Source: Pirellulales bacterium
GTDB taxonomy: Bacteria; Planctomycetota; Planctomycetia; Pirellulales; Lacipirellulaceae
Reading direction: 5' to 3'
NCBI GenBank assembly: GCA_022448265.1
Contig: JAKVCC010000006.1
Coordinates: 62,001-126,000, forward strand
Length of the DNA: 64,000 bases
Part shown: one piece after another, positions 10,098-25,624 of the stretch
How the letters are laid out: every line of letters starts with the position of its first letter
How positions within the stretch are numbered: the first letter of the stretch is position 1
Notes under the pieces: model-generated
Told to the model about the DNA's origin: nothing
The model's database searches: none
What the model saw: only the letters and a program-made list of their open reading frames with translations
Position numbers and translations under genes: made by a program

Positions 10098-10904
10098 GTG
10101 ACGAAACTAATCGACTCTCTACTCAATCGGGTTCAAGGCCCCAAACTTCTCGGGCTTGATGTAAATAGGGGCGATAGAAATCTGTTTTCTACAGGTTATC
10201 CCAACAGTGGAAATTCCTGGATTTCGTATCTGATATCGTACATTTTGAATTGCAAATATCATGACATCGATCACCTTGAGTGGTCGCCCGAACGGGTACC
10301 CCTGCAGAAACTTGTTAGTGGTGAGAACCCACATCCCGGTTCGGCGATCTTTGATCGAGTTCTCAAGACCCACGCGCCCGCCTCAAGCCTTTCCCTCGGC
10401 ACAAACGACAAGCTCGTCTACAACGTTCGGGATGGAAGAGATGTGGTCAATAGCTATTTTCATCGCATCGAAAAAGTGTGGGCAGTTCCCAGGGGGTGGA
10501 AGCGGCGAGCTATCTATGGGGCCTCCCGCGCGGTCCCATTTCGGATCCGCTACTCAAAACTGGCTCAGTACTTTTCCCGTCAATGGGCCTCTCAGGTTCA
10601 GCAACATCTAGATGCCGGGTACCCGCTGATCCGTTACGAAGACATGTTGACCGATCCGATTGACACGCTGAAGTCGGCGATTGGTAAGCTAGACCCCAGT
10701 GCATGGAACGAGCCCGTGGCGCGCAAGGCGGTGGACCTTTTTTCACTGAAACAAATTAGGAAAGCGTCGGAAGAATCAGGTGCGGTCGTGCAGACAAATC
10801 GCGTGGGGCGCCGAGGAGACTGGGAAAATTACTTCACGAAGGCGGATGAGCGCCGCTTCGAAGTCGAATGCGGAGAAGTGATGCGAACACTCGGATATCT
10901 TTGA
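10098..10904 (+). CDS. Sulfotransferase (PAPS-dependent)
   Basis: A 268-residue protein with a GTG start, since the ATG just upstream hits a stop after five codons. It has the hallmarks of the sulfotransferase family. The 5'-phosphosulfate loop is STGYPNSGNSW (about 31-41). The 3'-phosphate-binding motif is VYNVRDGRDVV (about 107-117). The C-terminal RRGDWENYFT resembles the RKGxxGDWK PAPS-contact motif. The enzyme would transfer sulfate from PAPS to a hydroxyl or amine of a carbohydrate or lipid. It has no signal peptide, so it acts in the cytoplasm. With the ATP sulfurylase fusion and a second sulfotransferase downstream, it points to sulfation of a surface glycan. The acceptor is unknown. 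Confidence 0.85.
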   Translation: MTKLIDSLLNRVQGPKLLGLDVNRGDRNLFSTGYPNSGNSWISYLISYILNCKYHDIDHLEWSPERVPLQKLVSGENPHPGSAIFDRVLKTHAPASSLSLGTNDKLVYNVRDGRDVVNSYFHRIEKVWAVPRGWKRRAIYGASRAVPFRIRYSKLAQYFSRQWASQVQQHLDAGYPLIRYEDMLTDPIDTLKSAIGKLDPSAWNEPVARKAVDLFSLKQIRKASEESGAVVQTNRVGRRGDWENYFTKADERRFEVECGEVMRTLGYL

Positions 10905-11047: not shown

Positions 11048-11884
11048 TCAGCTACCTGGCCGCTTGACCTTTTCCGGGCAGCAGAAAATAAAGTTGTAGA
11101 TGTAGTTTTGATCACGGTAGCGCCGCTGCCGCTGTGATTCCGGTTGAGCGTCCAGGTACTTTTCCATTTCGTCCAAAATGGATCGATCGGTTCGCGTCAG
11201 GCGGCCATTTCGGTAGTGGTAGACGCCGTAGCCAAGCTCTTCCAAAAAATCAAAGATGCGGAGGCCGTCTTCGCCGCAGTGCTTTTCCGCCTCGATTAAT
11301 ACGACTGGCATTTGCCGCTGGAGGGTTTCGCGGCCCCCTTGAAGCACGTTCATTTCGCTCCCCTCGACATCGATCTTAATGAAATCGATGTCATCGACAT
11401 CGCGAAAGACTTCGTCGAACGGCGCCACTTTTGTTTTAACTTTTTTCACGTGAAGGATATCATCGGCTACCGCGCTGTCGAGCCGGTCTGGCTGAGCAGT
11501 CGTGAGCGCAAAGATTTCGCCCTTGGTCTCACTGTACGGAACGGAAAGCTCAAGCTCACCGTGCTCCGTTCCCAAGGCAAGTTGATGGACCACGCAGTTC
11601 TTGGGGCCGGCCTTTTTGAGCGGTATCGCCAAATTAGGCAACGGTTCCACCGAATGGGTTGTTTGAAACAGCTTGCAGAGGATCCGTGTGTACACACCGA
11701 AATTAGCGCCAATATCTATGGCCGTTCGATTCTGGCAATCGATTAATGAATCGATACGCGTAATAAATTCGACTTCAAACTCGTGATCCTGGCGCAGGCC
11801 ATCCTTTAGGTGCCACACCTTCCAGGCCAGCGTGGGAAACCGCTTTAGGGCCATGTGCTGTAAATTGCGAAGAAACCGAGCCAT
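11048..11884 (-). CDS. FkbM-family methyltransferase
   Basis: A 278-residue protein. The ATG at 11884 has a GAGAAGG ribosome site; a TTG start 11 codons earlier is possible. It has the FkbM-type Rossmann fold: AIDIGANFGVYTRILC is the SAM-binding motif I, HSVEPLPN the acidic loop, and DFIKIDVEGSEMNVLQGG the characteristic FkbM motif with the IDVEG signature. These enzymes O-methylate sugars, often in polysaccharide or glycopeptide loci. It is the only gene on the minus strand in this glycan cluster, so it is separately transcribed. The substrate is inferred to be a glycan residue. Confidence 0.85.
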   Translation of the reverse strand: MARFLRNLQHMALKRFPTLAWKVWHLKDGLRQDHEFEVEFITRIDSLIDCQNRTAIDIGANFGVYTRILCKLFQTTHSVEPLPNLAIPLKKAGPKNCVVHQLALGTEHGELELSVPYSETKGEIFALTTAQPDRLDSAVADDILHVKKVKTKVAPFDEVFRDVDDIDFIKIDVEGSEMNVLQGGRETLQRQMPVVLIEAEKHCGEDGLRIFDFLEELGYGVYHYRNGRLTRTDRSILDEMEKYLDAQPESQRQRRYRDQNYIYNFIFCCPEKVKRPGS

Positions 11885-12855
11885 ACTGCACCTTCTCAAC
11901 GTATGCCACGACCGCAAGTGTCAGGGGCGGCCAGACCCGATCGCCCCGTCACAGTGCGTGGCCAGAGTATATTGCCTTCACTTTAATTGCTGGAGCATTT
12001 AATTATCGGGATTGGATTCTTCTGGGGAAGCCAAATCTCCACAGCCCGTGCGAGTTTCACTCGTCTGACGTTTTGTGTTGGCCAACCGATCGGTATCTCC
12101 AACCTCATGCGAGGCCTTTGTAAGAATTATAACATGCCTGTGATCATTGCGACAGACGGTTAGGCGTTGCAATCGAAGGAAGGAAAATCTGTGCGTCCCC
12201 GCTAGCCAATGGTGGGCAGCCCTGTTCTGTGCGAGATATGGGTGCTGTAAGAAGTTGCACCGTATTTTGATGTCGCGCCGGAAAAGGGCCAACTTGTCAT
12301 GACCCCTTTGCGCCTTCAGTCGGCTGCTCGTCTCTGTTATATGGCAGCATATTCAGGAAGTTAGTTGCCTTTTGGGTGTTGGCTGGGTAGGATCGATTTC
12401 AACTGGAGGGGCTCGAGGTTCGGGGTTGGGACTCAGCACTGCGTGTGAGTTGGGCCAGTGGCAAACAGTTGATTCTGCGACTGTCTGAGGAGGCGCCAGA
12501 TCACGATCGAAAAGATTCGTTTGAAAAATATCCGTGCAGATGACGATTCCAACGGAGCCGACTTTTTCAGCTGGCAGTGAGAGTTTCCATGGGGCGCGTT
12601 TAATACGGCCACTCTCTCGGCAGCCAAAGTTCCCGAACCTGCTGGTGTCACGCTAGCCTGCTTCGGCTTCGGGATATTGGCAGCTGTCCGATTCGGTGGC
12701 TCGCGCTTGCGAAGTGGGAAATGCGTCAGGTTTGGCGCTGTGGCAGACTTGGTTGAGGTGCTGGCGGAAACGACCAGGGCCGGGGGTGCGATCCAGCAGG
12801 GTTTTGCCCGGGCAGCGAGGGTGCCCTTCCGTGGGCTTTCAGAGGATTATCGCAC
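11885..12855. other. Intergenic region with a decayed exported-protein gene
   Basis: About 970 bp between divergent genes. The right half contains a recognisable dockerin/PEP-CTERM remnant, listed separately. The left half (to about 12.45 kb) has no protein that I can recognise and no clear RNA. Confidence 0.5.
12515..12718 (+). pseudogene. Remnant of a dockerin/PEP-CTERM exported protein
   Basis: On the plus strand a segment reads ADDDSNGADFFSWQ, which is the second half of a planctomycete dockerin-type repeat, and is followed at once by an in-frame TGA (12578-12580). After the stop the same frame continues AAKVPEPAGVTLACFGFGIL and then RFGGSRLR, a textbook PEP-CTERM tail (from about 12620). 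The order and spacing match the live exported proteins at 87-6000. It is therefore a decayed 3' end carrying a nonsense mutation; the 5' part is not recognisable. The GT4 gene downstream begins beyond it. Confidence 0.6.
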
Positions 12856-13986
12856 GTGATCAGATCGACGGACTCCGATTCGGCTCTTGTTACCTTTGTC
12901 GGACCTCTTCCACCCCCTGTGACCGGTATGACTGCCATGACTGAGGTTGTGGTTGAGTCGCTTGGTCGAGATGCTCCACTCCGTTCGTTGGGATGGTCGA
13001 GTGCGAGTCTTCCGGGCAGTCTTGGTTGGAAGCTAGCGCGGGCCAAAGGATACTTCCTAGCCATGGCCCGCCTACTCCTTGGCAAGCGTGTTGTGGGAGG
13101 ACGACTTTACTGTCTCGCCAATTCGGGCTGGGGGCTCTACTACGACATTGCGCTGACATTCATTGCTCGACTGAGAGGTTATCGTGTCGTCCTTCACCAT
13201 CATGTCTACTCCTACATTACCCGCTACAGTCGGCGCATGGCGCTGGTGAATCGGATCGTAGGAACCGACGGGATACACGTGGTTCACTGCCAGCAGATGA
13301 AGGCCGATTTTTTAGCCATGTATCCCACGGGTGCCGAGTTCTTGTTTTTGCCGCCGACGATTGTTGTTCAGAAGGAGCCGACGCAGGGGTTCTCGCCTAA
13401 CAAGGGCTTTCAATCAGCGGCCGATTCGCCCCGCCGTTTTCGTCTGGGGTTTTTGAGTAACCTGTCGGTCGAGAAGGGTCTGCATCTCGTCTTAACGACG
13501 TTTGAACAGCTTCGTGCCGCTGGCGACGACGTCCAGCTGACGCTGGCAGGCCACTGTTTGAGCAGTAAAGAGCAAGACCTAATTGACCAAGCAGTCGAGC
13601 GATGGCCTACGGATATCGAGTATGCGGGACCCGTTTATGGAGAAAAAAAAATCCAGTTCTTCGATTCCATCGACCTCTTTTTGTTTCCTACACAGTATCA
13701 GAATGAGTCTTGGGGAATCGTTTTGACAGAAGCCTTGGCAGCCGCACGCCCGGTTGTCGCCTACGGGCGCGGCTGCATTCCCTGGATCGTTCGCGATGGT
13801 TGTGGCAGCGCGATTGACCCGAAGGAAGACTATGTGTCCCAGGCTGTAGCCTTGATCCGTGGTTGGATACGCGACCCGGCAAGCTACCGCCAGACATGCG
13901 AGCGGGCGGCCGCTCGTAGCGAGGCCCTGAACGTCGAGGCAATAGAGCAATTTGCGGCTTTTGTCGCCCGCATGGGTCAGCGATGA
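12856..13986 (+). CDS. Glycosyltransferase family 4 (GT-B)
   Basis: A 376-residue protein with a GTG start. The N terminus FVGPLPPPVTGMTAMT is the nucleotide-sugar GT-B opening seen in many family-4 enzymes. The C-terminal half has the Rossmann strand RLGFLSNLSVEKGLHLVL and the donor-binding E-x7-E motif in NESWGIVLTEALAAARPVVA (about 298-317). It would transfer a sugar from a nucleotide donor onto a growing glycan at the inner face of the membrane. It lies between the FkbM gene and the ATP sulfurylase fusion and is followed by a probable terminator. Donor and acceptor cannot be told from sequence. Confidence 0.85.
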   Translation: MIRSTDSDSALVTFVGPLPPPVTGMTAMTEVVVESLGRDAPLRSLGWSSASLPGSLGWKLARAKGYFLAMARLLLGKRVVGGRLYCLANSGWGLYYDIALTFIARLRGYRVVLHHHVYSYITRYSRRMALVNRIVGTDGIHVVHCQQMKADFLAMYPTGAEFLFLPPTIVVQKEPTQGFSPNKGFQSAADSPRRFRLGFLSNLSVEKGLHLVLTTFEQLRAAGDDVQLTLAGHCLSSKEQDLIDQAVERWPTDIEYAGPVYGEKKIQFFDSIDLFLFPTQYQNESWGIVLTEALAAARPVVAYGRGCIPWIVRDGCGSAIDPKEDYVSQAVALIRGWIRDPASYRQTCERAAARSEALNVEAIEQFAAFVARMGQR

Positions 13987-14256: not shown

Positions 14257-14310
14257 CAGAATCTAACGCAAGAATATTTAACTCTCATACTTTGATTGAG
14301 GAAGCTTGTT

Positions 14311-16506
14311 ATGGCCGAACGTAAACGAATAATCAATGTATTGTGTACGCTTGGTCCCGCCTCGTTGAATCAATCAACGATTGAGCGGCTTGAAGAACGC
14401 GATGTCGATCTGTTTCGGATCAATTTGTCGCACACGCCGCTTGACAAGATTGCTGAAACGATAGAGACCATTCAAAAGTTCTCATCGAAAACTCCCATTT
14501 GCCTCGATACCGAAGGAGCCCAGGTTCGTAATGGCACGATGGTCCCTGACACCGTGGTTAAGGATCGTCAGCATATTCGCTTGGTGGCAAACCCAGTGGA
14601 AGGTGACGGCAAGTGCCTGTCACTAACTCCTCCCTCTGTTTTTAGTGAGCTGGGGCCGAACAGCCTGGTTGGAATCGACTTCGATGGCGTGGTGCTGCTT
14701 GTGTTGGAGTCTGACGAGAATAGCGCGGAAACCGTAGTTCTCAACGGTGGTCGTATTGGGTCCAACAAAGCTGTCGTTATCGATCCGGCCCCCAAGCTGC
14801 CGCCGTTGTCTGAAAAAGATATCGAAGCAGTGAAAATAGGCCGTAGTTATGGGATCACAAATTATGCATTGTCCTTCGCGAACTGTGCTGCCGATGTGGT
14901 CGCGCTCCGCAACCTGACTGGGCCCAATTCAACGATAATTTCTAAGATTGAAAGTAAGCGAGGCGTTCGGAATCTCGATGAGATTATGGTGGAGACGGAT
15001 GAGATCCTTATCGACCGTGGCGACCTTTCCCGCGAAGTGCCGCTGGAAAATATTCCGCTGCTGCAAAAAGCCATTCTCCGCAAGGCCAACATTGCCAACA
15101 CGCCGGCGAACGTGGCGACGAATCTTCTTGAATCGATGATTGTCAATCGCAAGCCGACTCGTGCCGAGTTGAATGACATAATTAACACGATGATGGATGG
15201 CGGTAATGGTTTAGTACTCGCCGCAGAGTGTGCAATCGGCAAGCACCCCGTGGGCGCTGTCGACATGGTGCTAAGCATGATCGAGCGGTTTCGCCGCTCT
15301 TTGGATGGGCATCGCATTGAAGACCTCCTGGAGTCAGGTCAGCTGTTGCTGCCTTCTCTGCATGGTAGTAGTCCGCACAGCAGTCGCCCGCCGGCTCGCT
15401 ACATGAAGTCTTCGAGCGAAATGCTGGCCAAGCTCCCAGCAATTGAAGTTGATCTAGAAACGGCTATGGACGTTGAGCAGCTTGCGCACGGCGTCTACTC
15501 GCCACTAGACGGTTTTATGACGCAGCCCGAATTGGAAGGCGTGCTGGACGAAAACCGCCTTCCTGGGGGCGATGTCTGGACCATGCCGATCCTCTTGCAG
15601 GGAAAGAGCCAAGAATTTTCTGCCTACCAGCCTGGGCAATCAATCCGATTGGTTGATCAACGGACTGGCGAGTCAACGGCCATTCTGCATCTGGAGGATA
15701 AGTACGAAGTCGATTTGAAAAGCGTTGCCAGTCGTTGGTTTGGCACATCCGACAAGTCTCACCCTGGTGTGGCCCGCTTTATGAGCCGGGGAACCACAAT
15801 TCTGGGCGGTCCGGTTGAATACCTGGGACCGGTGAGCGTGGCGAGGTCTCCCTACCAGCTTACGCCCAGCCAGACGAGAATGCTGTTCGATATCAAAGGA
15901 TGGAGCAAGATCGTCGCGTTCCACACCCGCAATGTACCCCATCGGGGACACGAGCATGTGATCGCCAACGCGTGTGAGCGAAGTAACGCCGATGGTGTCT
16001 TGATTCATCCTGTCATAGGTCCGAAAAAAGTGGGCGATTTCTTGCCCGACATGATATTGGGTGCGTATGAACGACTGATCGAAGCGGCCTTTCCGAACGC
16101 GCTGCTGGCAGCGTTCAGCACTTACTCGCGGTACTGCGGACCGCGCGAGGCCGTATTTACGGCGTTGTGCCGAAAAAATTTCGGATGCACGCATTTCGTG
16201 ATTGGCCGCGACCATACGGGCGTGGGTGATTTCTATGCCCCGAATCAGAACCGAGAGCTTCTCGAATCTCTGGGTGACATCGGTATTACGCCGGTCTTTT
16301 TCGACACGGTTTACTTCTCTGACAGCCTTGGAGAAACAGTCGAGTCAAGCTCGTCCGAAGGAGACTTCAAGGCCATTTCAGGCACCAAGGTCCGCGAGTT
16401 GCTTGACGCGCATCAACCCGTCCCCGAATGGTGTATGCGAGCGGAGATATCCAACTGGCTGGTCGAGCAGAGCGAGTCTGGCCAACCCGTATTTGTTGAG
16501 TCCTGA
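14311..16506 (+). CDS. Pyruvate kinase-like domain fused to ATP sulfurylase
   Basis: A 731-residue protein; the ATG has GAGGAAG eight bases upstream. Residues 1-330 follow pyruvate kinase: CTLGPAS (12-18), RINLSHT (36-42), DTEGAQVR (66-73), SKIES (211-215), DRGDLS (235-240), ATNLLESM (269-276), PTRAE (282-286). Residues equivalent to the kinase's catalytic Arg, Asn, Ser, Asp, Lys, Glu, Asp and Thr are all present, but the C-terminal regulatory domain is missing. Residues about 375-731 are ATP sulfurylase (sulfate + ATP to APS + PPi), with HTRNVPHRGHE (538-548) and GRDHTGVGDFY (632-642). There is no APS kinase domain. It heads a run with a sulfotransferase 11 nt downstream, so sulfate activation for glycan sulfation is the likely job. 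The role of the kinase-like half is open: PEP-driven ATP supply or an altered regulatory domain. Confidence 0.85.
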   Translation: MAERKRIINVLCTLGPASLNQSTIERLEERDVDLFRINLSHTPLDKIAETIETIQKFSSKTPICLDTEGAQVRNGTMVPDTVVKDRQHIRLVANPVEGDGKCLSLTPPSVFSELGPNSLVGIDFDGVVLLVLESDENSAETVVLNGGRIGSNKAVVIDPAPKLPPLSEKDIEAVKIGRSYGITNYALSFANCAADVVALRNLTGPNSTIISKIESKRGVRNLDEIMVETDEILIDRGDLSREVPLENIPLLQKAILRKANIANTPANVATNLLESMIVNRKPTRAELNDIINTMMDGGNGLVLAAECAIGKHPVGAVDMVLSMIERFRRSLDGHRIEDLLESGQLLLPSLHGSSPHSSRPPARYMKSSSEMLAKLPAIEVDLETAMDVEQLAHGVYSPLDGFMTQPELEGVLDENRLPGGDVWTMPILLQGKSQEFSAYQPGQSIRLVDQRTGESTAILHLEDKYEVDLKSVASRWFGTSDKSHPGVARFMSRGTTILGGPVEYLGPVSVARSPYQLTPSQTRMLFDIKGWSKIVAFHTRNVPHRGHEHVIANACERSNADGVLIHPVIGPKKVGDFLPDMILGAYERLIEAAFPNALLAAFSTYSRYCGPREAVFTALCRKNFGCTHFVIGRDHTGVGDFYAPNQNRELLESLGDIGITPVFFDTVYFSDSLGETVESSSSEGDFKAISGTKVRELLDAHQPVPEWCMRAEISNWLVEQSESGQPVFVES

Positions 16507-16613
16507 GAAGTTTCGCTTTGCATCCAGTCGCGACAACTGTTTTGGGGTCTCTCGATGCCCCGCAGAAACTGCCAAGTGCTTGTCACGAAAAAGATTTCTT
16601 GCTGATTGCCAGT

Positions 16614-17543
16614 ATGCCGGCAATTGGACTGATATATAAGTGGATTCAACCTGTCATGCGTTACGCTCTTGAACAAGGTTTGCACAGTCGTAACGGATTT
16701 GTACGCAAGGGGGCGACGTTTCTGTTGCAGCTTCCCAAGCTCTATGCACGACTCGGAAGCCACCGCGACAAGTTCTTCGCCACTCCTGCCGTGCTGGTGA
16801 ACTCGTTTCCAAAGAGTGGAACGCATTTGCTGGATCAAATAGTAACTGCCTTGCCAAGTCGATGTAACTATGGGGCGTTCCTCTCGTCAATGACGAGTTC
16901 GGTCCAATTTCGCCGCCGCACGGAGCAGAGCAGTTGCCGATTTATTCGGGCATCTGTCCCAGGGGAAATTGTTCGGGCCCACTTATTCTACAGTGATCCT
17001 GTCGCAGCAGCTCTCCACGAACAAAGGTTTGTCCACTATTTCATCTATCGTGACCCTCGCGATGTTGTTTTGTCGGAAGCCCACTACTGCCGCAGTATTA
17101 ACCGTTGGCACCGTCTGTCTCGCTATTTTCGTGAGGCGAGTTCGTTGGAGGAAGGGATCACAATTTCGATTGCAGGCCTTCAAGGGGACTACCCACATTT
17201 GGATCACCCAGACATCGCGGAGCGTTATGCGAGATACGTCCGGTGGATTGAACACCCTGATGTTTACGCTGTGAAATTTGAGGAGCTTGTTTCTGCAAAG
17301 CGAGAGCAGCACTTGCTACAGATGGCCCAGCACTATCAACGGCATAGTGATGTGCGATTAGACCTCGACTTGATTTTGCAGCGAATGCGTCAAAACATTG
17401 CGCCTGAACAGTCCCACACGTATCGCAAAGGAAGGTCTGGCGGCTGGAAGGAGCAGTTTACGGCTGAGCACTGCAAACTCTTCAAGAAAATTGCAGGAGA
17501 CACTCTAGTGCAGCTTGGCTACGAGGCAGATGACAACTGGTAG
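16614..17543 (+). CDS. Sulfotransferase (PAPS-dependent)
   Basis: A 309-residue protein if it starts at the ATG at 16614; the frame is open back to a TTG at 16518, only 11 nt after the ATP sulfurylase fusion, so the start is uncertain. The 5'-phosphosulfate loop is NSFPKSGTHLLDQI (about 63-76) and the 3'-phosphate motif is FIYRDPRDVVLSE (about 143-155). The C-terminal RKGRSGGWKEQFT matches the PAPS-binding RKGxxGxWK box. This half is closer to the cytosolic sulfotransferase (Sulfotransfer_1) pattern than the gene at 10098. It is probably co-transcribed with the ATP sulfurylase fusion. The acceptor is presumably a sugar in the glycan made by this locus. Confidence 0.85.
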   Translation: MPAIGLIYKWIQPVMRYALEQGLHSRNGFVRKGATFLLQLPKLYARLGSHRDKFFATPAVLVNSFPKSGTHLLDQIVTALPSRCNYGAFLSSMTSSVQFRRRTEQSSCRFIRASVPGEIVRAHLFYSDPVAAALHEQRFVHYFIYRDPRDVVLSEAHYCRSINRWHRLSRYFREASSLEEGITISIAGLQGDYPHLDHPDIAERYARYVRWIEHPDVYAVKFEELVSAKREQHLLQMAQHYQRHSDVRLDLDLILQRMRQNIAPEQSHTYRKGRSGGWKEQFTAEHCKLFKKIAGDTLVQLGYEADDNW

Positions 17544-18003
17544 CCGATTGAAGTGGCTGACTATTACGTCGATCTGCGCAGCCATAGAGCCTAGCCGCTA
17601 GTATTTCGATTCAAGATCTGCATACCCGACGCGGCCCCGCCAGTAGCCTGAAGGATCTGTTGTAGTGATAGGCACATGGAGTGCTCCCAGGGCGTGTTGG
17701 CGGCAGGTTGGCTTTTCCAACCTTCGCAGTTTGTACAATCGGAACATCCGCAACAGACCGGATGCCTAAAATGGCTTCTTTCAGCTGCAATAATGGAGAT
17801 TTATTGGTATCTCGTTTTATAATTAAGAAGCAGGCCGTCACTTAATAGAACACTTGAGGAAAGCCCTCTTTCCAGCTTGATCCGCAACTTATTTACTGTT
17901 TTGAAGAGCCTAGAGCAGTGTGACCGGTCAGAGAGATCTGCGCTGATACTGGGATTTGCAGCCGGCTGCCGAAAGCCGGTGCCAGCCAAGAAGACAGGAT
18001 TCT
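17544..18003. other. Intergenic region upstream of the heptose operon
   Basis: About 460 bp without a recognisable gene. A perfect 6-bp inverted repeat (CCGGCT, loop GCCGAA, AGCCGG) lies about 25-40 nt before the epimerase start and could fold in the leader RNA. No known riboswitch is recognised. Confidence 0.4.
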
Positions 18004-18936
18004 ATGAAAGTCTTAATCACAGGTGGTGCGGGCTATATTGGCAGCGTACTGACGGAACACTTGCTGGCCCGGGGCGACCAGGTCCACACCATCGACAATC
18101 TCACGTGGGGCGAGCATTGCCTGTTTCAGTTTTGCGCCAATCCGAATTTCCAGTTCACCAAGGGTGACGTGCGCGACCCAGAGTTGCTCGCTAGCGCCGT
18201 CAAGGATGCCGACGTAATCATTCCCTTGGCCGCGCTGGTTGGCGCGCCGCTTTGCAAGAGAGACCCGCAACTTGCCAAAGAGATAAATTTAGACGCCGTC
18301 CTGGAGCTTGACAAGCTGCGAAGCGCCTCGCAGTTGATGATCTATCCCAACACCAATAGTGGGTACGGCATCGGCAGCGGAGATTCATTTTGCACCGAAG
18401 AGAGCCCGCTCGAACCAATTTCGGTCTACGGCCGTACAAAATGTGATGCTGAACTCGCACTGTTGGACAAAGAAAACGCGATTACGTTTCGCCTTGCGAC
18501 CGTTTTCGGTGCTTCGCCACGCATGCGAATCGACCTGCTCGTCAACCATTTTACCTATTCTGCGGTGACGGATGGCTATCTGGTCGTCTTTGAGAAAGAC
18601 TTCAAACGCAACTACGTTCACATCCGCGACGTTGCCGACTGTATGATTTACGCTATGGAGAATCGCGAGGACATGGTTGGCCGGCCTTTCAACTTGGGCC
18701 TTGACGAGGCCAATCTTTCCAAGGAACAGTTGTGCGAGAAAATTCAGAAGTTTGTCCCCTCCTTTTTCGTTCACTACGCTGAAATTGGCGAGGATCCAGA
18801 TAAACGTGATTACATAGTTTCTAATGAACGCCTGAAACAGGTGGGATTCGTGGCAAGGCGGAGCCTTGACGACGGCATCCAAGAACTTATCAAAGCTTAT
18901 CGAACTCTGGGGTTGGGGAAGTATCGCAATGCCTGA
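18004..18936 (+). CDS. NAD-dependent sugar epimerase/dehydratase (extended SDR)
   Basis: A 310-residue extended short-chain dehydrogenase. The start was set at MKVLITGGAGYIG, where TGGAGYIG (7-14) is the NAD-binding glycine loop; the frame upstream adds nothing conserved. PLAALVGAP follows the usual HLAA strand and VYGRTK carries the catalytic Tyr-x3-Lys. It is a WcaG-type nucleotide-sugar modifier acting in the cytoplasm. Its stop overlaps the next start by 8 nt (heptokinase), so it is the first gene of the heptose operon. It may act on GDP-heptose, but NDP-hexose substrates are equally compatible. Confidence 0.85.
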   Translation: MKVLITGGAGYIGSVLTEHLLARGDQVHTIDNLTWGEHCLFQFCANPNFQFTKGDVRDPELLASAVKDADVIIPLAALVGAPLCKRDPQLAKEINLDAVLELDKLRSASQLMIYPNTNSGYGIGSGDSFCTEESPLEPISVYGRTKCDAELALLDKENAITFRLATVFGASPRMRIDLLVNHFTYSAVTDGYLVVFEKDFKRNYVHIRDVADCMIYAMENREDMVGRPFNLGLDEANLSKEQLCEKIQKFVPSFFVHYAEIGEDPDKRDYIVSNERLKQVGFVARRSLDDGIQELIKAYRTLGLGKYRNA

Positions 18937-20008
18937 CGAGCTATCCGCGAGCGCGTCCACTATCGGAACGCTGAATAAAAAATTGCAGCACCCAATCGTG
19001 CGCGCCAAGTCTCCTTTGCGCATCAGTTTCACCGGTGGTGGAACTGACGTGCCGGTGTGGTACGAAAAGTATCCGGGCGCGGTCATTTCGTCATCGATCA
19101 ACCGTTATGCCTACGTCACGATGTATCCCCGCAAGGATCGCGAGATCCATATTCGATCGTTGGACATGGAGTACTCCGTCAAGTATCACCTCGACGAGGC
19201 ACCGGCCTACGATGGCGTGATGGACTTGGCGAAGGTCGCGATCAAGCGTTTGGGGGTTGAACGGGGATTGGACATTGATGTGCGCTCTGACGCCCCAGCG
19301 GGTAGCGGCTTGGGTGGGTCCTCAGCACTCACCTCGGCATTGTTGGGAGCATTGGCAGAATTTCGGGGCGTCAAAATCGGCCGCGAAAAACTGGCGGAGC
19401 TCAATTACACTGTGGAACGCGTCGATCTAAACATTTCCGGTGGCAAACAGGATCAATATGCGACAGCTTACGGTGGGTTTAACTGCATCAAATTCTCCAA
19501 GGATTTTATTGCGGTGGAGCCCATCGACGTTGACGATGCGGTGGTCAACGACCTCGAAGCACACATGCTGATGTGTTATACGGGCAAGGTTCGGGCTCAC
19601 GCCAATCTCATCGACAAGCAGGTTGATCTGCTCAGCAAGGGTAGCAGTACCACGATCGACGGCATGAAACGCCTCTACGACATGGTGTACGAGATGCGCG
19701 ACTCGCTGGTCGAGGGTGATTTGGACAAATTTGGCTTCTTGATGCACGAGTCCTATGTCAACAAGAAGCGGATGAACCCGCATATCACCGATGGAACGCC
19801 CACAGACAGTATGTATGAAGCGGCCCTGCATGCTGGTGCCCTGGGTGGCAAGCTTCTCGGGGCCGGCGGCGGCGGCTATCTGTCAATCTACTGTCCCACG
19901 GAAAAGCAGCACGAAGTGCGAAATGCGCTCGAAGCCATGGGCGCTCTTTTTACGGATTTCGCATTCGACAAACAGGGCATCCAGGTCTGGCGAAGTTCCA
20001 GTCGCTAG
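18929..20008 (+). CDS. hddA: D-glycero-D-manno-heptose 7-phosphate kinase (HddA-like)
   Basis: A 359-residue GHMP-superfamily kinase. The ATG overlaps the end of the epimerase gene. The N-terminal motif AKSPLRISFTGGGTDVPVWY (26-45) is diagnostic for the HddA/fucokinase-like branch. The ATP-binding GHMP motif is PAGSGLGGSSALTSALLGAL (123-142) and the C-terminal motif 3 is KLLGAGGGGYLSIYC. Together with phosphoheptose isomerase, bisphosphate phosphatase and nucleotidyltransferase genes nearby, it should phosphorylate D-glycero-alpha-D-manno-heptose 7-phosphate at C1. A related sugar-1-kinase specificity cannot be excluded. Confidence 0.85.
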   Translation: MPDELSASASTIGTLNKKLQHPIVRAKSPLRISFTGGGTDVPVWYEKYPGAVISSSINRYAYVTMYPRKDREIHIRSLDMEYSVKYHLDEAPAYDGVMDLAKVAIKRLGVERGLDIDVRSDAPAGSGLGGSSALTSALLGALAEFRGVKIGREKLAELNYTVERVDLNISGGKQDQYATAYGGFNCIKFSKDFIAVEPIDVDDAVVNDLEAHMLMCYTGKVRAHANLIDKQVDLLSKGSSTTIDGMKRLYDMVYEMRDSLVEGDLDKFGFLMHESYVNKKRMNPHITDGTPTDSMYEAALHAGALGGKLLGAGGGGYLSIYCPTEKQHEVRNALEAMGALFTDFAFDKQGIQVWRSSSR

Positions 20009-20037
20009 ATGGGTACAGGGATCAGGATCAATCCAAC

Positions 20038-20745
20038 ATGGATATCACAGCGATCGTCTTAGCTGGCGGAATGGGGACGCGGCTACGATCGGTCGTCGTC
20101 GATCGACCCAAGGTATTGGCGCCGGTAGCCGGCAAGCCGTTTATTGCGTATTTATTTGCCCAGTTGGAAGAAATGGGCGTGCGACACGCAATTCTTTCCA
20201 CTGGGTACTTGGCCGAGACGTTTGTAGACGTTCTTGGCGAGCGCCAAGGCTCGCTCCAACTCCAGTATGTGCAAGAGGATTCTCCGTTGGGAACTGGCGG
20301 TGCCGTCCGCTGGGTCGGCCAGCATGTCCGCACCAGCCATGCAATTGTCCTCAATGGGGACTCTTATGTGAATGCTGACCTACGGGAGTATGTGTCCTGG
20401 CACGAACAACTCGAAAACGACGTTTCGCTAATGCTGGTGCCGGTTGCCGATGCGTCCCGATATGGCACTGTCGAGATCGATGCGGAAAGCCGTGTTACCG
20501 CTTTTTTGGAGAAGCGTCCGGAGCGGGTAGCGGGTCGGATCAATGCCGGCATTTATCTTTTACGCAGCGAACTTTTTGACCAAATCCCTGACGGCAAGTG
20601 TTCCCTTGAAGCCGATGTTTTGCCAAAATGGCTGAAGTCCTATCGGGTCAAAGGATTCACTAGTGCTGGTGAGTTTATCGACATCGGTATACCAGAAGAT
20701 TATCATCGTAGTCACCAGTTCATGGAAAGGTTTAAGCGTGTCTGA
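20038..20745 (+). CDS. hddC: D-glycero-D-manno-heptose 1-phosphate guanylyltransferase (HddC-like)
   Basis: A 235-residue nucleotidyltransferase of the Rossmann-like NTP-transferase family. The signature AIVLAGGMGTRLRSVVVDRP is followed by KVLAPVAGKPFIAYL, and LNGDSYVN carries the metal-binding Asp. It activates a sugar 1-phosphate with an NTP. The heptose enzymes on both sides make GDP-D-glycero-alpha-D-manno-heptose the expected product. An ADP- or UDP-sugar cannot be excluded from sequence alone. The 3' end overlaps the phosphatase gene by 8 nt. Confidence 0.85.
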   Translation: MDITAIVLAGGMGTRLRSVVVDRPKVLAPVAGKPFIAYLFAQLEEMGVRHAILSTGYLAETFVDVLGERQGSLQLQYVQEDSPLGTGGAVRWVGQHVRTSHAIVLNGDSYVNADLREYVSWHEQLENDVSLMLVPVADASRYGTVEIDAESRVTAFLEKRPERVAGRINAGIYLLRSELFDQIPDGKCSLEADVLPKWLKSYRVKGFTSAGEFIDIGIPEDYHRSHQFMERFKRV

Positions 20746-21304
20746 CGCCGCCGGTGTCACGGTGTTTCTCGATCGAGATGGCACGTTGAATCGTGAAAAG
20801 CACCATCTCTCTGACCCGGACGACCTGGAGCTAATTCCTGGAGCTGCCAAGGGGCTACGGGCTTTGATGCTTTATGGTTGTCGCTTGGTTGTCGTCACCA
20901 ACCAATCGCCCATTGGTCGGGGAATTTTTGATGAGGCGCGACTCCACGAAATCCATGGGCGCTTGGCGGCCATGTTGTCGCGTGACGAGGGGGTAACCAT
21001 CGACGGTTGGTATTGGTGTCCCCATCTTCCGGATGCCGGATGCCGTTGTCGCAAGCCGGAGATCGGCATGTTTCTTCAGGCACGCGACGAACTGGGTGTC
21101 GATCTGAAACGATCGTGGATGGTTGGGGATAAACTGATTGATACGCAAGCAGGATGTCTGGCAGGCGCTCGCACGGTGCTGGTCGCCACCGGATACGGAA
21201 AAGAACAACACGAACTCCCCGAGCGGACGGAGTGGGTTGATTTTTTCGTCCCTTCAATGCTGGAGGCAGCCGAGTTAATTGTTGAACAGCAAGGATTACC
21301 TTGA
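20738..21304 (+). CDS. gmhB: D-glycero-D-manno-heptose 1,7-bisphosphate 7-phosphatase (GmhB)
   Basis: A 188-residue HAD-superfamily (IIIA) phosphatase. The GTG start overlaps the preceding stop (GTGTCTGA) and has AAGG upstream. The catalytic loop is FLDRDGTLN, motif 2 is VVTNQSPIGRG, and the GmhB-specific zinc site is WCPHLPDAGCRCRKPEIGM, with the Cys-x-His and Cys-x-Cys pattern. Motif 4 is MVGDKLID. It removes the 7-phosphate after the HddA-type kinase step. The strict overlap with hddC supports co-expression. Confidence 0.9.
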   Translation: MSDAAGVTVFLDRDGTLNREKHHLSDPDDLELIPGAAKGLRALMLYGCRLVVVTNQSPIGRGIFDEARLHEIHGRLAAMLSRDEGVTIDGWYWCPHLPDAGCRCRKPEIGMFLQARDELGVDLKRSWMVGDKLIDTQAGCLAGARTVLVATGYGKEQHELPERTEWVDFFVPSMLEAAELIVEQQGLP

Positions 21305-21713
21305 GTGGACCGCTTCGCTATGACGAATGATCAATGGACTGTGAGTAGTCACGCTATCCTGATGCGTCACCGACGGCGTAGTCCGTATGTAACTTTCACA
21401 TCCCATGTAAGCGAAAAGTTGGGGACATTCCATCGCTACTTTCGGCCCAAGTAGAACGGGCCGCCGCCTGAGTTGCACCACGACACCGCGTCCAGCCTTT
21501 CTGAGTCCAAGAGGTAGGCCAAAACCGCTCTCCAGGCAGGACTTCCAGGAGATTTGAGAATTTTCGGAGGGGGTAAAATAACTTGCTATCGCGGCAGTCC
21601 TTGCTAGACTCGCGTTTATGCTGTTCGCGCTGGTTCACTCGCCGTTATATGCAGTACAAGCGGTTACATCCGTATTATTTCAAACATAAAAATCTGTCCA
21701 AGAGGATCATGTC
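21305..21713. other. Intergenic region before gmhA
   Basis: About 410 bp. A possible promoter is TTGCTA, 16 nt, TAGACT near 21580-21615, roughly 100 nt before gmhA. Nothing else is recognisable. Confidence 0.4.
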
Positions 21714-22331
21714 GTGAGTGAAACAGACGCTGATGCCGACTGGCTTCAGAAAGTGCAGGGCCACTTTCAGCGGAGCGCAGACGTGAAACGGGAGTTTGCC
21801 GCGGAAAGCGGGGAGCTGTTGGTTCGCTGTGCGGACCGGATCGCCGCCTCATTTCAGCAGGGTGGTAAATTGATGTTTTGCGGCAATGGTGGCAGCGCGG
21901 CCGATTGCCAGCATCTGGCTACGGAGTTCGTGAGTGTGTTGACGCAAGAATTCGACCGCCCTGCCCTGCCTGCGCTGGCACTGACAACCGATACATCGTT
22001 CTTGACCGCACGCAGTAACGACTACGGATTCAGGTCAAGTTTCTCCAGGCAGGTTGAGGCGTTAGGCAAGCCCGGGGATGTGCTGATCGGCATTTCGACC
22101 AGTGGCAACTCCGAGAACGTACTGCAAGCGTTTCAGGCGGCTAGGTCCCGGGAAATCTTCACGATTGGATTCACGGGTCGAAGCGGCGGCAAGATGGGCG
22201 ATGGGGCTGATTTGCTCCTTCGAGTTCCCTCTGAATCAACGCAACACATCCAAGAGTGTCACATTGCCATGGGGCATGTGATGGTCGCCCAAATCGAACA
22301 AACCATCTTTTCCAAAGGAAAGCAGGAGTAA
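21714..22331 (+). CDS. gmhA: Phosphoheptose isomerase (sedoheptulose 7-phosphate isomerase)
   Basis: A 205-residue SIS-domain protein with a GTG start. FCGNGGSAADCQHLATEFV is the GmhA signature that includes active-site residues, and GISTSGNSENVLQAF is the SIS phosphosugar loop. C-terminal HIQECHIAMGH holds the conserved metal or acid-base His and Glu residues of the family. It converts sedoheptulose 7-phosphate to D-glycero-D-manno-heptose 7-phosphate, the entry step of the pathway whose later enzymes lie just upstream. Length is close to the family norm (about 190-200). Confidence 0.92.
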   Translation: MSETDADADWLQKVQGHFQRSADVKREFAAESGELLVRCADRIAASFQQGGKLMFCGNGGSAADCQHLATEFVSVLTQEFDRPALPALALTTDTSFLTARSNDYGFRSSFSRQVEALGKPGDVLIGISTSGNSENVLQAFQAARSREIFTIGFTGRSGGKMGDGADLLLRVPSESTQHIQECHIAMGHVMVAQIEQTIFSKGKQE

Positions 22332-22338
22332 TTAAGCG

Positions 22339-23307
22339 ATGTCCTATTGGCAGAATAAATCGGTCATGGTAACCGGTGGTGGAGGCTTTCTTGGCAGCCA
22401 TGTTGTGGAGCAGTTGCAACAGCGGGGCTGCCAAAAAGTTGTGGTGGTGCGCAGCGAAAACTATGACCTGGTGAACGAAGATGACACCGTACGACTATTT
22501 CAGGATCACCCGAGCGATATTGTCCTGCACCTGGCTGGATATGTGGGTGGCTTGGGGGCCAATAAGGACTACCCGGCTGACTTCTTCTATCGCAATCTAA
22601 TGATGGGTGCGCACGTCCTTCATTTTGCCTGGAAAAGCGGAGCTCAAAAAGTCGTCGCGGCGGGCGCGGGCTGTGGGTACCCTGAAGAAGCGCCCCTGCC
22701 GATCAAGGAATCGGACTACTGGAACGGTTTCCCCCAGGTCGATAGCGCGCCTTACTCGCTTGCCAAGCGAATGTTACATGTGCAGTCGATGGCCTACTGG
22801 AGACAGCACAAATTCCCGATTCTGGTCGGCATTCCAGGCAATATATACGGCCCGTTCGACAATTTTGATTTGGAAGCAGCCCATGTCATTCCCGCTCTGG
22901 TGCGAAAATTTGTTGAGGCCGCTGATGACGGTCAGTCGTCCGTCCAGGTATGGGGAACCGGACAAGCAACTCGCGATTTTGTTTACGGGGGCGACGTGGC
23001 CACAGCCTTGATTCTCATGGCCGAGAAAATTGAGGAGCCGGTACTCCTGAACCTTTCCTGCGGGCAAGAGGCCAGTGTTCGTGAAGTCGTCGACCATCTG
23101 GTCAAAATCACGGGATTTGGTGGAAAAATCGACTGGCAGACCGATCGCCCCGAAGGTCAATCGCGGCGCGTGTTCGACATGTCTAAGACGCAAAAGACCC
23201 TCGACTTTATTTGTGAAACGTCGCTCTTTGATGGCCTAGTACTTACGGTAGATTGGTATCGGGCCAACCGGACGACTGCGCGTAACCTAGTCGCGGCGCC
23301 CAGCTAG
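22339..23307 (+). CDS. GDP-L-fucose synthase-like epimerase/reductase (extended SDR)
   Basis: A 322-residue extended SDR, 7 nt after gmhA. The glycine loop is VTGGGGFLGSHVVEQL. The motif HLAGYVGGLGANKDYPADFFYRN is very close to the GDP-fucose synthase (Fcl) pattern HLAA-VGG-ANxxxPA; the catalytic dyad is in PYSLAKRM. Fcl enzymes epimerise and reduce 4-keto-6-deoxy GDP-sugars. In a GDP-heptose locus it could make a 6-deoxy-heptose or a C3/C5-epimerised heptose. No GDP-mannose 4,6-dehydratase is visible here. Confidence 0.8.
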   Translation: MSYWQNKSVMVTGGGGFLGSHVVEQLQQRGCQKVVVVRSENYDLVNEDDTVRLFQDHPSDIVLHLAGYVGGLGANKDYPADFFYRNLMMGAHVLHFAWKSGAQKVVAAGAGCGYPEEAPLPIKESDYWNGFPQVDSAPYSLAKRMLHVQSMAYWRQHKFPILVGIPGNIYGPFDNFDLEAAHVIPALVRKFVEAADDGQSSVQVWGTGQATRDFVYGGDVATALILMAEKIEEPVLLNLSCGQEASVREVVDHLVKITGFGGKIDWQTDRPEGQSRRVFDMSKTQKTLDFICETSLFDGLVLTVDWYRANRTTARNLVAAPS

Positions 23308-23388
23308 GTTCTTTCTTTTTTTTGATTCTGCGCGAGCTGCTTAGGCTGTTGATGGCTTCCCCCCCTTCCCTCACACGCTGATTTCTCC

Positions 23389-24600
23389 ATGCGTATCGTT
23401 ATCCATGATTATGCCGGCCATCCGGGCGAAATATACATGAGCCGCGAACTTGCCCGACGGGGCAACGAAGTGTTGCATCTTTATGCGGGCTCGATCGAGA
23501 CGCCGCGCGGCGAACTACAGATCACACCAGACGATCCGCCCACATTTAAGGTCGAGGGGATATTTCTCGACAAGCCGTTCCGCAAACACACCTATGTGCG
23601 GCGCCAGTTACAGGAAATCGAGTATGGGCGTTTGCTTGTCGATGCGATTGGTAAGTTCAAGCCCGATGTTGTGTTGTCGGCGAATACGCCCCTGTTTCCT
23701 CAGGCCCGGCTGGCCCGCGCTTGTCGAAAGTGGGGGGTGGGCTTTGTATTTTGGGTAATGGATGTGTACGGACTGGCAGTTGATGCCGCCCTGCGCGGAA
23801 AACTCCCTGTGATTGGAGGTTTGGTTGGTAGCTATTACATCTGGCTGGAGAAACAGCTGCTGCGGGCCAGCGATCAAGTGATTTTGATTTCAGAAGGTTT
23901 TGCGCCGACGATCGAGAGTTGGGGGGTACCGCGCGAGAAACTACAGATCGTGCCCTTGTGGCCGCCCCTCGATGAATTGCCGGTGCTTCCTAAGGACAAC
24001 GACTGGTCGCGCCAAAACGGATTCGATCAAACGATCAACCTAATATACGCGGGTACTTTGGGCTCGAAGCACAATCCGGAAACACTTGTGGCCTTAGCCC
24101 AGCAGCTCAAAGCTCGCGAAGATGTCCGGATCATTGTCGTTTCGGAAGGGGTTGGTTCGGAGTACCTTAAGAAGCGCAAGATGGAAACGCCTCTAGAGCA
24201 TCTAGTTCTGCTGCCGTACCAACCGTATGATCAGCTTGCGCAGGTGCTGGCGAGCGCCGACGTACTGCTGGCGCTACTTGAGCCATCGGCGGGGGCGTTC
24301 TCCGTGCCTGGGAAGGTATTGAGCCATTTATGTGCGCAGCGGCCTCAGGTTGCGGCTGTGCCGATGATCAATCGGGCAGCGAAAGTTATCCAGGACAGCG
24401 GCGGTGGTTTTGCGATCCCTGTAGGGGACGACGCCGCATTTGTCGATGCGGTCGTAACACTAATCGATGACCCCGAATTGAGACGGGAAATGGGCCTAAA
24501 ATCACGAGCCTATGCCGATACTGAGTTTGACATTGGCCGCATCGGCGAACGAGTTGAAGGTGTCCTCAAGTTGGTAATGCCGAACGTAAGCAGGAAATAG
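23389..24600 (+). CDS. Glycosyltransferase family 4 (WcaI-like)
   Basis: A 403-residue GT-B enzyme. N-terminal RIVIHDYAGHPGEIYMSREL is a typical opening with the acceptor-binding loop; the middle has INLIYAGTLGSKHNPETL, the donor-domain start, and LLPYQPYDQLAQVLASADVL. The terminal helix region includes AFSVPGKVLSHLCAQRP in place of the usual E-x7-E motif, as seen in WcaI-type colanic acid transferases. It probably adds a sugar residue (perhaps the heptose) to a lipid-linked glycan. It is flanked by two SDR genes, with only 4 nt to the next. Confidence 0.85.
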   Translation: MRIVIHDYAGHPGEIYMSRELARRGNEVLHLYAGSIETPRGELQITPDDPPTFKVEGIFLDKPFRKHTYVRRQLQEIEYGRLLVDAIGKFKPDVVLSANTPLFPQARLARACRKWGVGFVFWVMDVYGLAVDAALRGKLPVIGGLVGSYYIWLEKQLLRASDQVILISEGFAPTIESWGVPREKLQIVPLWPPLDELPVLPKDNDWSRQNGFDQTINLIYAGTLGSKHNPETLVALAQQLKAREDVRIIVVSEGVGSEYLKKRKMETPLEHLVLLPYQPYDQLAQVLASADVLLALLEPSAGAFSVPGKVLSHLCAQRPQVAAVPMINRAAKVIQDSGGGFAIPVGDDAAFVDAVVTLIDDPELRREMGLKSRAYADTEFDIGRIGERVEGVLKLVMPNVSRK

Positions 24601-24604
24601 AAAA

Positions 24605-25624
24605 ATGAATTTTTGGCAAGGAAAATCGGTATTGGTCACGGGCGGTTGTGGTTTTATTGGGTCGTTCCTCGTCCGTGAATTGGTGCAATTAGGCTCCCGC
24701 GTGCGCGTGGCCGACAATCTAGAGAGAGGGCATCGAGAGAGCCTTGGTTCGGCCATCGACAAGATCGATATGCATGAGGTCGATTTGCGAGATTTGGACA
24801 CTTGCCGGCGGGCATGTGTTGATATGGATGTTGTGTTCCATCTGGCTTCGAAGGTTGGCGGTATCGGCTACTATCTGGAGAAACCTTGGGATGTCTTGCA
24901 CAGCAACATGACGATGGATGGCCATATTCTTACCGCGCTGGTGGAGGCCGGGGTGCCGCACTACTTCTACGCGAGTAGCGCGCACATCTATCCCATCGAG
25001 TTGCAGATGGATATCGATGCGACGCACATCCGCGAAGAGCAGGCCTACCCAGCAAATCCAAGTCTTTCGTACGGTTGGGCGAAGCTAACCGGCGAGAAAG
25101 CTATTGAAGCTGTCTTGCAAGAAGGACACAAGGTGCGCGCATCGATTGCGCGCATTGTGGGAGCCTACGGTCCGGGCCAGGATCTCGATTTAGCTACTGG
25201 GTCGGCCATTCCCGTGTTTTGCCGCCGCGCGGTCGAATACCCTCAGCTTGCCCCTTTTCGGCTGTTGGGCACAGGGAAGGAAACGCGAACTTATTGCTAC
25301 ATCGATGACGTGGTCCGTGGGATTATGCGCTCGACCGAAAAACTGCAGCACCGAGAGGCGGTGGGACCGTACAACTTAGGCAGTCCCGATCTGGTATCCA
25401 TTGGTGAGTTAGCCGAGACCATAATCGACATATCGGGCAAGAGCATCCAGATCGAATACGAAACGTCACATCCGACCAAGATCTGGGGGCAAGCCCCCGA
25501 TTGTTCCTACGTGGAGGAGCTTTTGGATGGATGGAGGCCGACCGTAACTCTCCGCGAGGGGCTGCAGCGATGTTACGACGATGTTCAGCAGCGGCTTGCC
25601 GCCATTTCAGCCGACGGCGCGTAG
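24605..25624 (+). CDS. NAD-dependent epimerase (GDP-mannose 3,5-epimerase-like SDR)
   Basis: A 339-residue extended SDR, 4 nt after the GT4 gene. The glycine loop is VTGGCGFIGSFLV; FHLASKVGGIGYYLEKPWD and YASSAHIYPIE resemble the GDP-mannose 3,5-epimerase subgroup, and YGWAKLTGE gives Tyr-x3-Lys. The position that is a catalytic Cys in plant GDP-mannose 3,5-epimerase (SSACIYP) is His here (SSAHIYP), so the exact reaction may differ. It is the last plus-strand gene of the glycan locus and probably modifies the GDP-heptose. Confidence 0.8.
   Translation: MNFWQGKSVLVTGGCGFIGSFLVRELVQLGSRVRVADNLERGHRESLGSAIDKIDMHEVDLRDLDTCRRACVDMDVVFHLASKVGGIGYYLEKPWDVLHSNMTMDGHILTALVEAGVPHYFYASSAHIYPIELQMDIDATHIREEQAYPANPSLSYGWAKLTGEKAIEAVLQEGHKVRASIARIVGAYGPGQDLDLATGSAIPVFCRRAVEYPQLAPFRLLGTGKETRTYCYIDDVVRGIMRSTEKLQHREAVGPYNLGSPDLVSIGELAETIIDISGKSIQIEYETSHPTKIWGQAPDCSYVEELLDGWRPTVTLREGLQRCYDDVQQRLAAISADGA

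Follow-up and report, generated by a model that had tools for sequence, protein, structure and literature searches.

Sulfate activation is energetically costly, and the helper activities known to be coupled to it are adenosine 5'-phosphosulfate (APS) kinase, pyrophosphatase and GTPase. The last of these is found in CysD/CysN(C), whose families are unrelated to those described below and where coupling is by GTP hydrolysis. Fusions of ATP sulfurylase with APS kinase are known as 3'-phosphoadenosine 5'-phosphosulfate (PAPS) synthases, and those of stramenopiles also include a pyrophosphatase (PMC13213808). Two gene-fusion surveys report fusions of a CysN type with APS kinase and of Sat with a histidine phosphatase, and a sulfated-capsule cluster of Cobetia has its own CysD, CysNC, CysQ, sulfate permease and sulfotransferases (PMC11766843). 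Here we describe a gene in which an ATP sulfurylase is preceded, on the same chain, by a barrel resembling pyruvate kinase (PK). It lies in a stretch of 64,000 nucleotides, hereafter the window, from a Pirellulales bacterium of the family Lacipirellulaceae (assembly GCA_022448265.1, contig JAKVCC010000006.1, positions 62,001 to 126,000). An original prediction, made by a model from the DNA letters, held that this architecture was not known from characterised enzymes; likewise, no description of a PK-like/ATP sulfurylase fusion was found in the literature searched, which mostly excluded subscription journals. Like the PAPS synthases, the protein joins a sulfurylase to a putative helper of sulfate activation, but its partner is an N-terminal PK-like barrel. 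The fusion points to an undescribed way of building a sulfate-activation machine, and, judged from sequence, we would place it in a PK-like clade linked to sulfation, with a new sulfurylase architecture.

The fusion protein of 731 amino acids (aa) is encoded in a single frame with zero internal stops, from an ATG with AGGAAG on its 5' side (an alternative in-frame TTG lies at 14296). Pfam recognises PK (PF00224; E 5e-63, 213.5 bits against a gathering score of 30), PUA_2 (PF14306; E 1e-37, 129.7 bits) and ATP-sulfurylase (PF01747; E 5e-63, 212.7 bits), the last two also far over their gathering scores, in agreement with the prediction that one gene joins the two enzymes. The C-terminal domain of PK, which had been called missing, is indeed absent from the Pfam matches and the sulfurylase half stands in its place; APS kinase and pyrophosphatase domains are not among the matches either. 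The closest solved chains are many pyruvate kinases for the N-terminal half and 1v47 (ATP sulfurylase) and 8a8d (a Methanothermococcus enzyme) for the C-terminal half. A predicted model of the PK half, based on 7 sequences (pLDDT 86.6, pTM 0.84), matches solved PKs with a best Z of 36.4 and 27-34% identity among the 50 matches listed. A full-length model based on 3 sequences reached a pLDDT of only 37, too low to place the halves relative to each other. A fold search of BFVD returned two matches with E no higher than 0.001, each at 8% identity.

The fusion is genuine, recurrent and under selection in both halves. Sixteen fusion proteins from two phyla are known to us, the window's and 15 more, counted where one match spans both halves, a criterion that diverged or split cases could escape. 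Within the window's family the fusion occurs in 10 of 43 genomes, its own included, and the other nine proteins are 64-76% identical (L003 and L004 were taken as contigs of genomes G013 and G034 by match); 396 genomes of the order, searched at E 1e-80, yielded only these ten. Four fusions belong to other planctomycete families: G356 and G322 (43% identity) were added by a draw of 392 genomes from the phylum, G776 by 62 genomes of the order of G356 and G883 by 150 genomes of the family of G322 (41% each). Among plasmids, 2 of 190 matching records cover at least 80% of the query, namely the rhizobial megaplasmids of Ensifer adhaerens (NZ_CP118611.1) and Sinorhizobium chiapasense (NZ_CP144206.1), whose fusions are close kin of one another and 45% identical to the query. 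The ratio of nonsynonymous to synonymous substitution (dN/dS) is low in the PK half (0.030 in the pair L069-L070, 0.056 in L009-L073 and 0.043 in L009-L010) and in the ATP sulfurylase domain (0.059, 0.010 and 0.033, respectively), with dS values of 0.60, 1.11 and 1.35, two of which exceed 1; in these three close pairs the linker is under looser constraint than either half. Quick trees that include some long branches unite the PK halves in a single clade apart from 18 ordinary PKs, and likewise the sulfurylase halves apart from 34 stand-alone enzymes. Fusions and the viral PK-like proteins described below fall on one side of a branch with support 100/99, the 18 PKs on the other (midpoint root, some long branches), which rules out that the PK domain is a recent copy of the genome's own PK.

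All eight residues that the prediction had placed in the PK active site (Arg36, Asn38, Ser40, Asp66, Lys212, Glu214, Asp238 and Thr270) are invariant in 16 of 16 fusions, as are His41, Arg73, Arg236, Gly237 and Glu306. In a set of 13 rows, nine fusions and four viral proteins, the same eight are invariant and Arg73 nearly so. The reaction centre of PK, which we take from the PK literature to comprise Arg36, Asn38, Asp66, Arg73, Lys212, Glu214, Asp238 and Thr270, is thus complete in every fusion, and its retention favours catalysis. The Ser40 column holds Ala in 9 of 10 ordinary PKs, mostly planctomycete, that served as a small comparison set. The sulfurylase half resembles Sat (PF01747 with PF14306) in its PUA_2 and catalytic domains and in the nucleotide motifs TRN, HxxH and GRDH, present in the window protein within the two predicted segments HTRNVPHRGHE and GRDHTGVGD. 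S or G replaces T in L040, L069 and L070, and close to the sulfate site the window protein has Ser for Met and Thr for His.

A link of the recurrent fusion to sulfation is supported by its neighbours. When chosen neighbouring genes were scored by Pfam or close homology, sulfotransferases proved to be no more than a few genes away at 11 of 16 loci (window, L030, L031, L033, L034, L035, L038, L077, L078, L079 and L080); recurrence near sulfotransferases, proposed as a check for planctomycete genomes, is thus seen at most loci. The scored neighbours included none at L069, L070, L071 (on a contig of 4.7 kb) and L072, and at L032 there is just a member of the NKWYS family. In a control, PF00685 gave 58 rows in the 71.5 Mb of the 14 planctomycete fusion genomes and lay within 5 kb of the fusion in 6 of the 14 against 0.0098 expected for each (binomial 2.6e-9, overstated since the genomes are related, and with the distance chosen after the loci had been inspected). 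The original prediction also stated that PAPS formation needs an APS kinase from another gene. Such a gene adjoins the fusion at 3 of 16 loci (L069, L070 and L080) and occurs somewhere in 13 of the 14 planctomycete genomes, the exception being G450, which is 58% complete; the window genome has two loci elsewhere, a CysNC-sized frame on contig C45 and a lone APS kinase on C34. On C45 two PF01507 genes accompany that frame, and together they resemble CysD, CysH and CysNC by size and position. CysD/CysN(C) likewise couples sulfate activation to a second nucleotide-linked part, and because of these look-alikes and the lone APS kinase the fusion is probably not the sole sulfate-activating enzyme of its genome.

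Relatives of the PK half also occur alone. A scan of IMG/VR with the 16-row alignment identified four contigs (L109-L112) that encode it without a sulfurylase, L111 and L112 being viral only by contig classification. Their proteins share with the fusions VATN and the signature LIDRGDLS (LIDRFDLS in L111), and their best PHROG match, phrog_25828 (function not given), is also that of the fusion's PK-like half, covering only residues 22-322 of the window protein. Searched against plasmids, the L109 protein matched the two rhizobial fusions best (261 and 258 bits, with at most 188 in the other ten matches listed). A sulfotransferase directly adjoins the PK-like gene on 2 of the 4 contigs. On L110 it overlaps the start of the gene and a mini nucleotidyltransferase overlaps the end, with no APS-kinase-like match found in the 8.9-kb piece; on L111 it lies directly upstream (PF03567, E 2e-5). 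On L109 an APS-kinase-like gene and a mini nucleotidyltransferase lie just under 2 kb upstream, and on L112 a transketolase-like pyrimidine-binding domain and then a short-chain dehydrogenase follow the PK-like gene, the protein upstream of which has zero Pfam matches. No stand-alone ATP sulfurylase was confirmed in the viral scan, and re-scans with a wider alignment or with single viral proteins returned known contigs only (L113-L118 are repeat views of these). The 19 to 21 records with distant matches in a phage collection (24-49% identity among the matches listed) were taken as ordinary PKs.

The mini nucleotidyltransferase is itself part of a common phage pair, seen in L118-L138 (e.g. L120:2347-3135; phrog_10255), in which an APS-kinase-like P-loop kinase is followed by an HxGH/ISATxxR nucleotidyltransferase of about 110-135 aa. 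Twenty-one contigs carry the latter, L118 being the contig of L110 and the other 20 (L119-L138) being represented by pieces only. In 19 of these 20 an APS-kinase-like gene lies just upstream; a PK-like match occurs in 0 and a sulfotransferase-like match in 1 (L121). By hhalign (97.6, E 3e-12) the kinase resembles APS kinases, and the solved chain that it matches best is a probable APS kinase. Of the five solved matches of the nucleotidyltransferase (E 0.0016 to 0.077), four are NMN adenylyltransferases and one is the hypothetical protein MJ0541; the hhalign probability of this nucleotidyltransferase against ATP sulfurylases is 3.5. The pair may be a miniature nucleotide-activating set, perhaps related to NAD or to sulfate; as proof of a viral sulfate-activation set it is weakened by the NMN adenylyltransferase matches, by the value of 3.5 and by the 20 contigs without a PK-like match.

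How might the two halves work together? Our preferred reading, held tentatively and with somewhat less than even confidence, is that the fusion protein would be a sulfate-activating enzyme dedicated to polysaccharide sulfation. Its C-terminal half would make APS from ATP and sulfate, a separately encoded APS kinase would convert APS to PAPS, and the neighbouring sulfotransferases would consume the PAPS. The PK-like half would draw on phosphoenolpyruvate (PEP) to rephosphorylate, where sulfate is activated, the ADP that APS kinase releases; this local recycling to ATP would lower ADP and feed the sulfurylase. We infer both activities, the role of ADP as acceptor and the coupling of the halves. 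Such a design would mirror laboratory practice: to a PAPS-generating cascade PK and PEP were added, regenerating ATP and avoiding inhibition of APS kinase by ADP (PMC9885120). The PEP-driven ATP supply put forward in the original prediction is plausible, given the link to sulfation and the retained catalytic residues.

Several observations weigh against it. Ten NCBIfam models match the protein and 0 of 10 reach their cut-off: the PK equivalog TIGR01064 scores 240.4 bits against 306.4, the ATP sulfurylase equivalog TIGR00339 scores 288.4 against 322.95, and the cut-off of NF003166 is likewise missed by the sulfurylase half. Alike in barrel and B-domain fold and in its reaction centre, the PK half differs from pyruvate kinase not only in this score, the missing C-terminal domain and the attached sulfurylase, but also in loop changes fixed in the clade. 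Compared with the 10 ordinary PKs, in none of which these changes occur, Lys/Ala is replaced by Glu68, Pro by Ala70, Glu/Lys by Gln71, Ala by Asp235 (just before RGD), Gly by Ser240, Gln/His by Asn271 and Ser-Gly by Ala304-Ala305. Position 71, which by alignment with 2e28 we take to be residue 117 in the rabbit numbering, is Gln in 16 of 16 fusions and so neither Glu nor Lys. Residue 117 is Glu in K+-dependent PKs and Lys in K+-independent ones (PMC4284704). In the B domain, or nucleotide lid, the NLPG motif is lost, and at one position all ten sampled PKs have a basic residue where 15 of 16 fusions have Asn or Ser; the position after it carries Lys in every fusion, as against Arg, Gln or Lys in the PKs. 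This second, retained position presumably corresponds, by our count, to rabbit Lys206. Rabbit Lys206 is reported to hold the nucleotide ribose (PMC4284704). Two of the viral-classed relatives (L111:463-1263 and L112:501-1238) lack the lid altogether in the alignment.

The sulfurylase half adds to these doubts. In the Allochromatium enzyme, Gln199, Arg201 and Ala299 hold the sulfate of APS (PMC3779200). In the Gln column (window His538, with which HTRN begins) 15 of 16 fusions have His and L041 has Pro, and the Ala column (window Thr636) is Thr in 12, Ser in 2 and another residue in 2, whereas all 32 stand-alone sequences compared, a small and mostly planctomycete set, have Gln and Ala there (32/32 each). 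With both contacts altered, even sulfate is an uncertain prediction for the substrate. Moreover, in 2 of 16 fusions (L041 and L074) the TRN, HxxH and GRDH motifs are gone, yet the conserved residues of the PK half remain. L074, with its degenerate sulfurylase and intact PK half, still has an adjoining sulfotransferase (at L078). Furthermore, the usual thermodynamic limit of ATP sulfurylase is the removal of pyrophosphate and APS rather than the supply of ATP, and of the 14 planctomycete fusion genomes, the set also used for the count of APS kinases, 13 encode another PF00224 protein. Because of the loop changes, the loss of the lid in two relatives and the persistence of an intact PK half beside decayed sulfurylases, the conserved function of the PK half may be narrower or different, involving another acceptor or the sensing of a ligand.

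One alternative, already raised in the original prediction and rather unlikely in our estimation, is that the PK-like half serves as a sensor or as a structural partner, with PEP, pyruvate or a nucleotide as its ligand, and thereby controls the sulfurylase. There is precedent in the inactive regulatory APS-kinase domain of the Penicillium enzyme and in the inactive sulfurylase-like domain of an Entamoeba APS kinase (PMC13213808). The loop and lid changes, the lid-less viral relatives and the second PKs would all suit such a role. However, the catalytic residues are invariant in all fusions and the PK half has a low dN/dS, members of the clade exist with no sulfurylase on the chain, and the two fusions in which the PK half is kept while the sulfurylase decays show the opposite of what a regulator would predict.

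A slightly less likely alternative is that the PK-like barrel acts on PEP with an acceptor other than ADP, for example by phosphorylating APS or a related nucleotide, or that it moves a sulfuryl group. Sulfoenolpyruvate can serve ordinary PK as a sulfuryl donor, a reaction on which no paper was found in the literature searched. Consistent with another acceptor, reaction-centre residues are kept without the lid (L111 and L112) and beside degenerate sulfurylases (L041 and L074), and the clade-specific Glu68, Gln71, Asp235 and Ser240 sit in loops around the centre. In addition, L110 has the order sulfotransferase, PK-like gene, mini nucleotidyltransferase and no APS-kinase-like match, against 19 of 20 other contigs with one. 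Against this, canonical APS kinases adjoin the fusion at three loci and 13 of 14 genomes encode one, which leaves no obvious need for such chemistry, and the argument from L110 is weak because its nucleotidyltransferase looks closer to NMN adenylyltransferase than to ATP sulfurylase and PK-like matches are missing from the 20 other contigs. A broader version, to which we give a little less credence again, is that a clade of the PK family in planctomycetes, rhizobial megaplasmids and viral-classed contigs left glycolysis for sulfation. Its barrel would use PEP or a like ligand with an acceptor that is not ADP; in cells its fusion partner is a sulfurylase whose sulfate site has been reworked, and on viral-classed contigs it stands alone, sometimes by sulfotransferases and sometimes lid-less. 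Finally, that the joined frame arose by frameshift or misassembly, the refutation envisaged at the outset, has a negligible chance of being true: the window genome is a draft of 87 contigs, but a corresponding joined frame is found in 15 other records, and its presence in the single-contig genomes G006 and G027 and on two plasmids recorded as complete excludes such an error.

Under the preferred reading, in which the barrel recycles ADP, a PK-like domain would be a further coupling partner and a new answer to the cost of sulfate activation; should the barrel have another acceptor, a new reaction in sulfur metabolism would be at hand. The protein is small enough for direct expression and assay, and could be useful for making sulfated polysaccharides.

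Table 1. Features of the window at and around the fusion gene
Feature	Position	Strand	Basis and remarks
Fusion gene: PK-like barrel with B domain (aa 8-317), linker, PUA_2 (aa 370-505), ATP sulfurylase (aa 515-719)	14311..16506	+	Open reading frame and Pfam
PK-like half	14311..15300	+	Predicted fold matches solved pyruvate kinases
PUA_2 and ATP sulfurylase half; sulfate-site residues His538 and Thr636 in place of Gln and Ala	15418..16470	+	Pfam, alignment
Sulfotransferase (PF00685)	16518..17543	+	TTG start at 16518, 11 nt downstream of the fusion; start, hence spacing, unsure
Second sulfotransferase (PF00685), upstream	10098..10904	+	Pfam
FkbM-type methyltransferase	11048..11917	-	Pfam
Group 1 glycosyltransferase, next gene upstream	12856..13986	+	Pfam; homologues at 48-49% in L030 and L038
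Sugar-nucleotide/polysaccharide genes	17956..25624	+	Pfam; NCBIfam matches under cut-off

The surroundings of the fusion in the window are compiled in Table 1. Sulfotransferases had been predicted on both sides, and both genes are recovered, the short spacing to the downstream one being uncertain. The sugar-nucleotide genes further downstream encode an epimerase, a GHMP (heptose-type) kinase-like protein, a nucleotidyltransferase, a HAD phosphatase, an SIS isomerase, a GDP-fucose-synthase-like protein, a glycosyltransferase-like protein and an epimerase, and this cluster may make a GDP-heptose-derived sugar for a polymer. Near other fusions, proteins of the NKWYS family (PF10364; L031:6272-7150, L032:7972-8799 and L034:11106-12002) show weak, sub-threshold similarity to sulfotransferases and may be an unrecognised branch of these. 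At six loci, drawn from both phyla, the fusion has a transporter of the sodium/proton-exchanger type (PF00999) next to it or close by: L033, L034, L077 and L078 (Pirellulaceae-type, window's family) and L069 and L070 (rhizobia). Elsewhere, ATP sulfurylase matches in long frames of 1208 and 954 aa (G059:C7:28660-29781 and G110:C29:127603-128619) are possibly other sulfurylase fusions, and one more PF00224 match (G451:C1:3335209-3336555), split over two stretches (profile 2-84 and 107-315), falls within a 646-aa frame, separate from the other PK matches of that genome.

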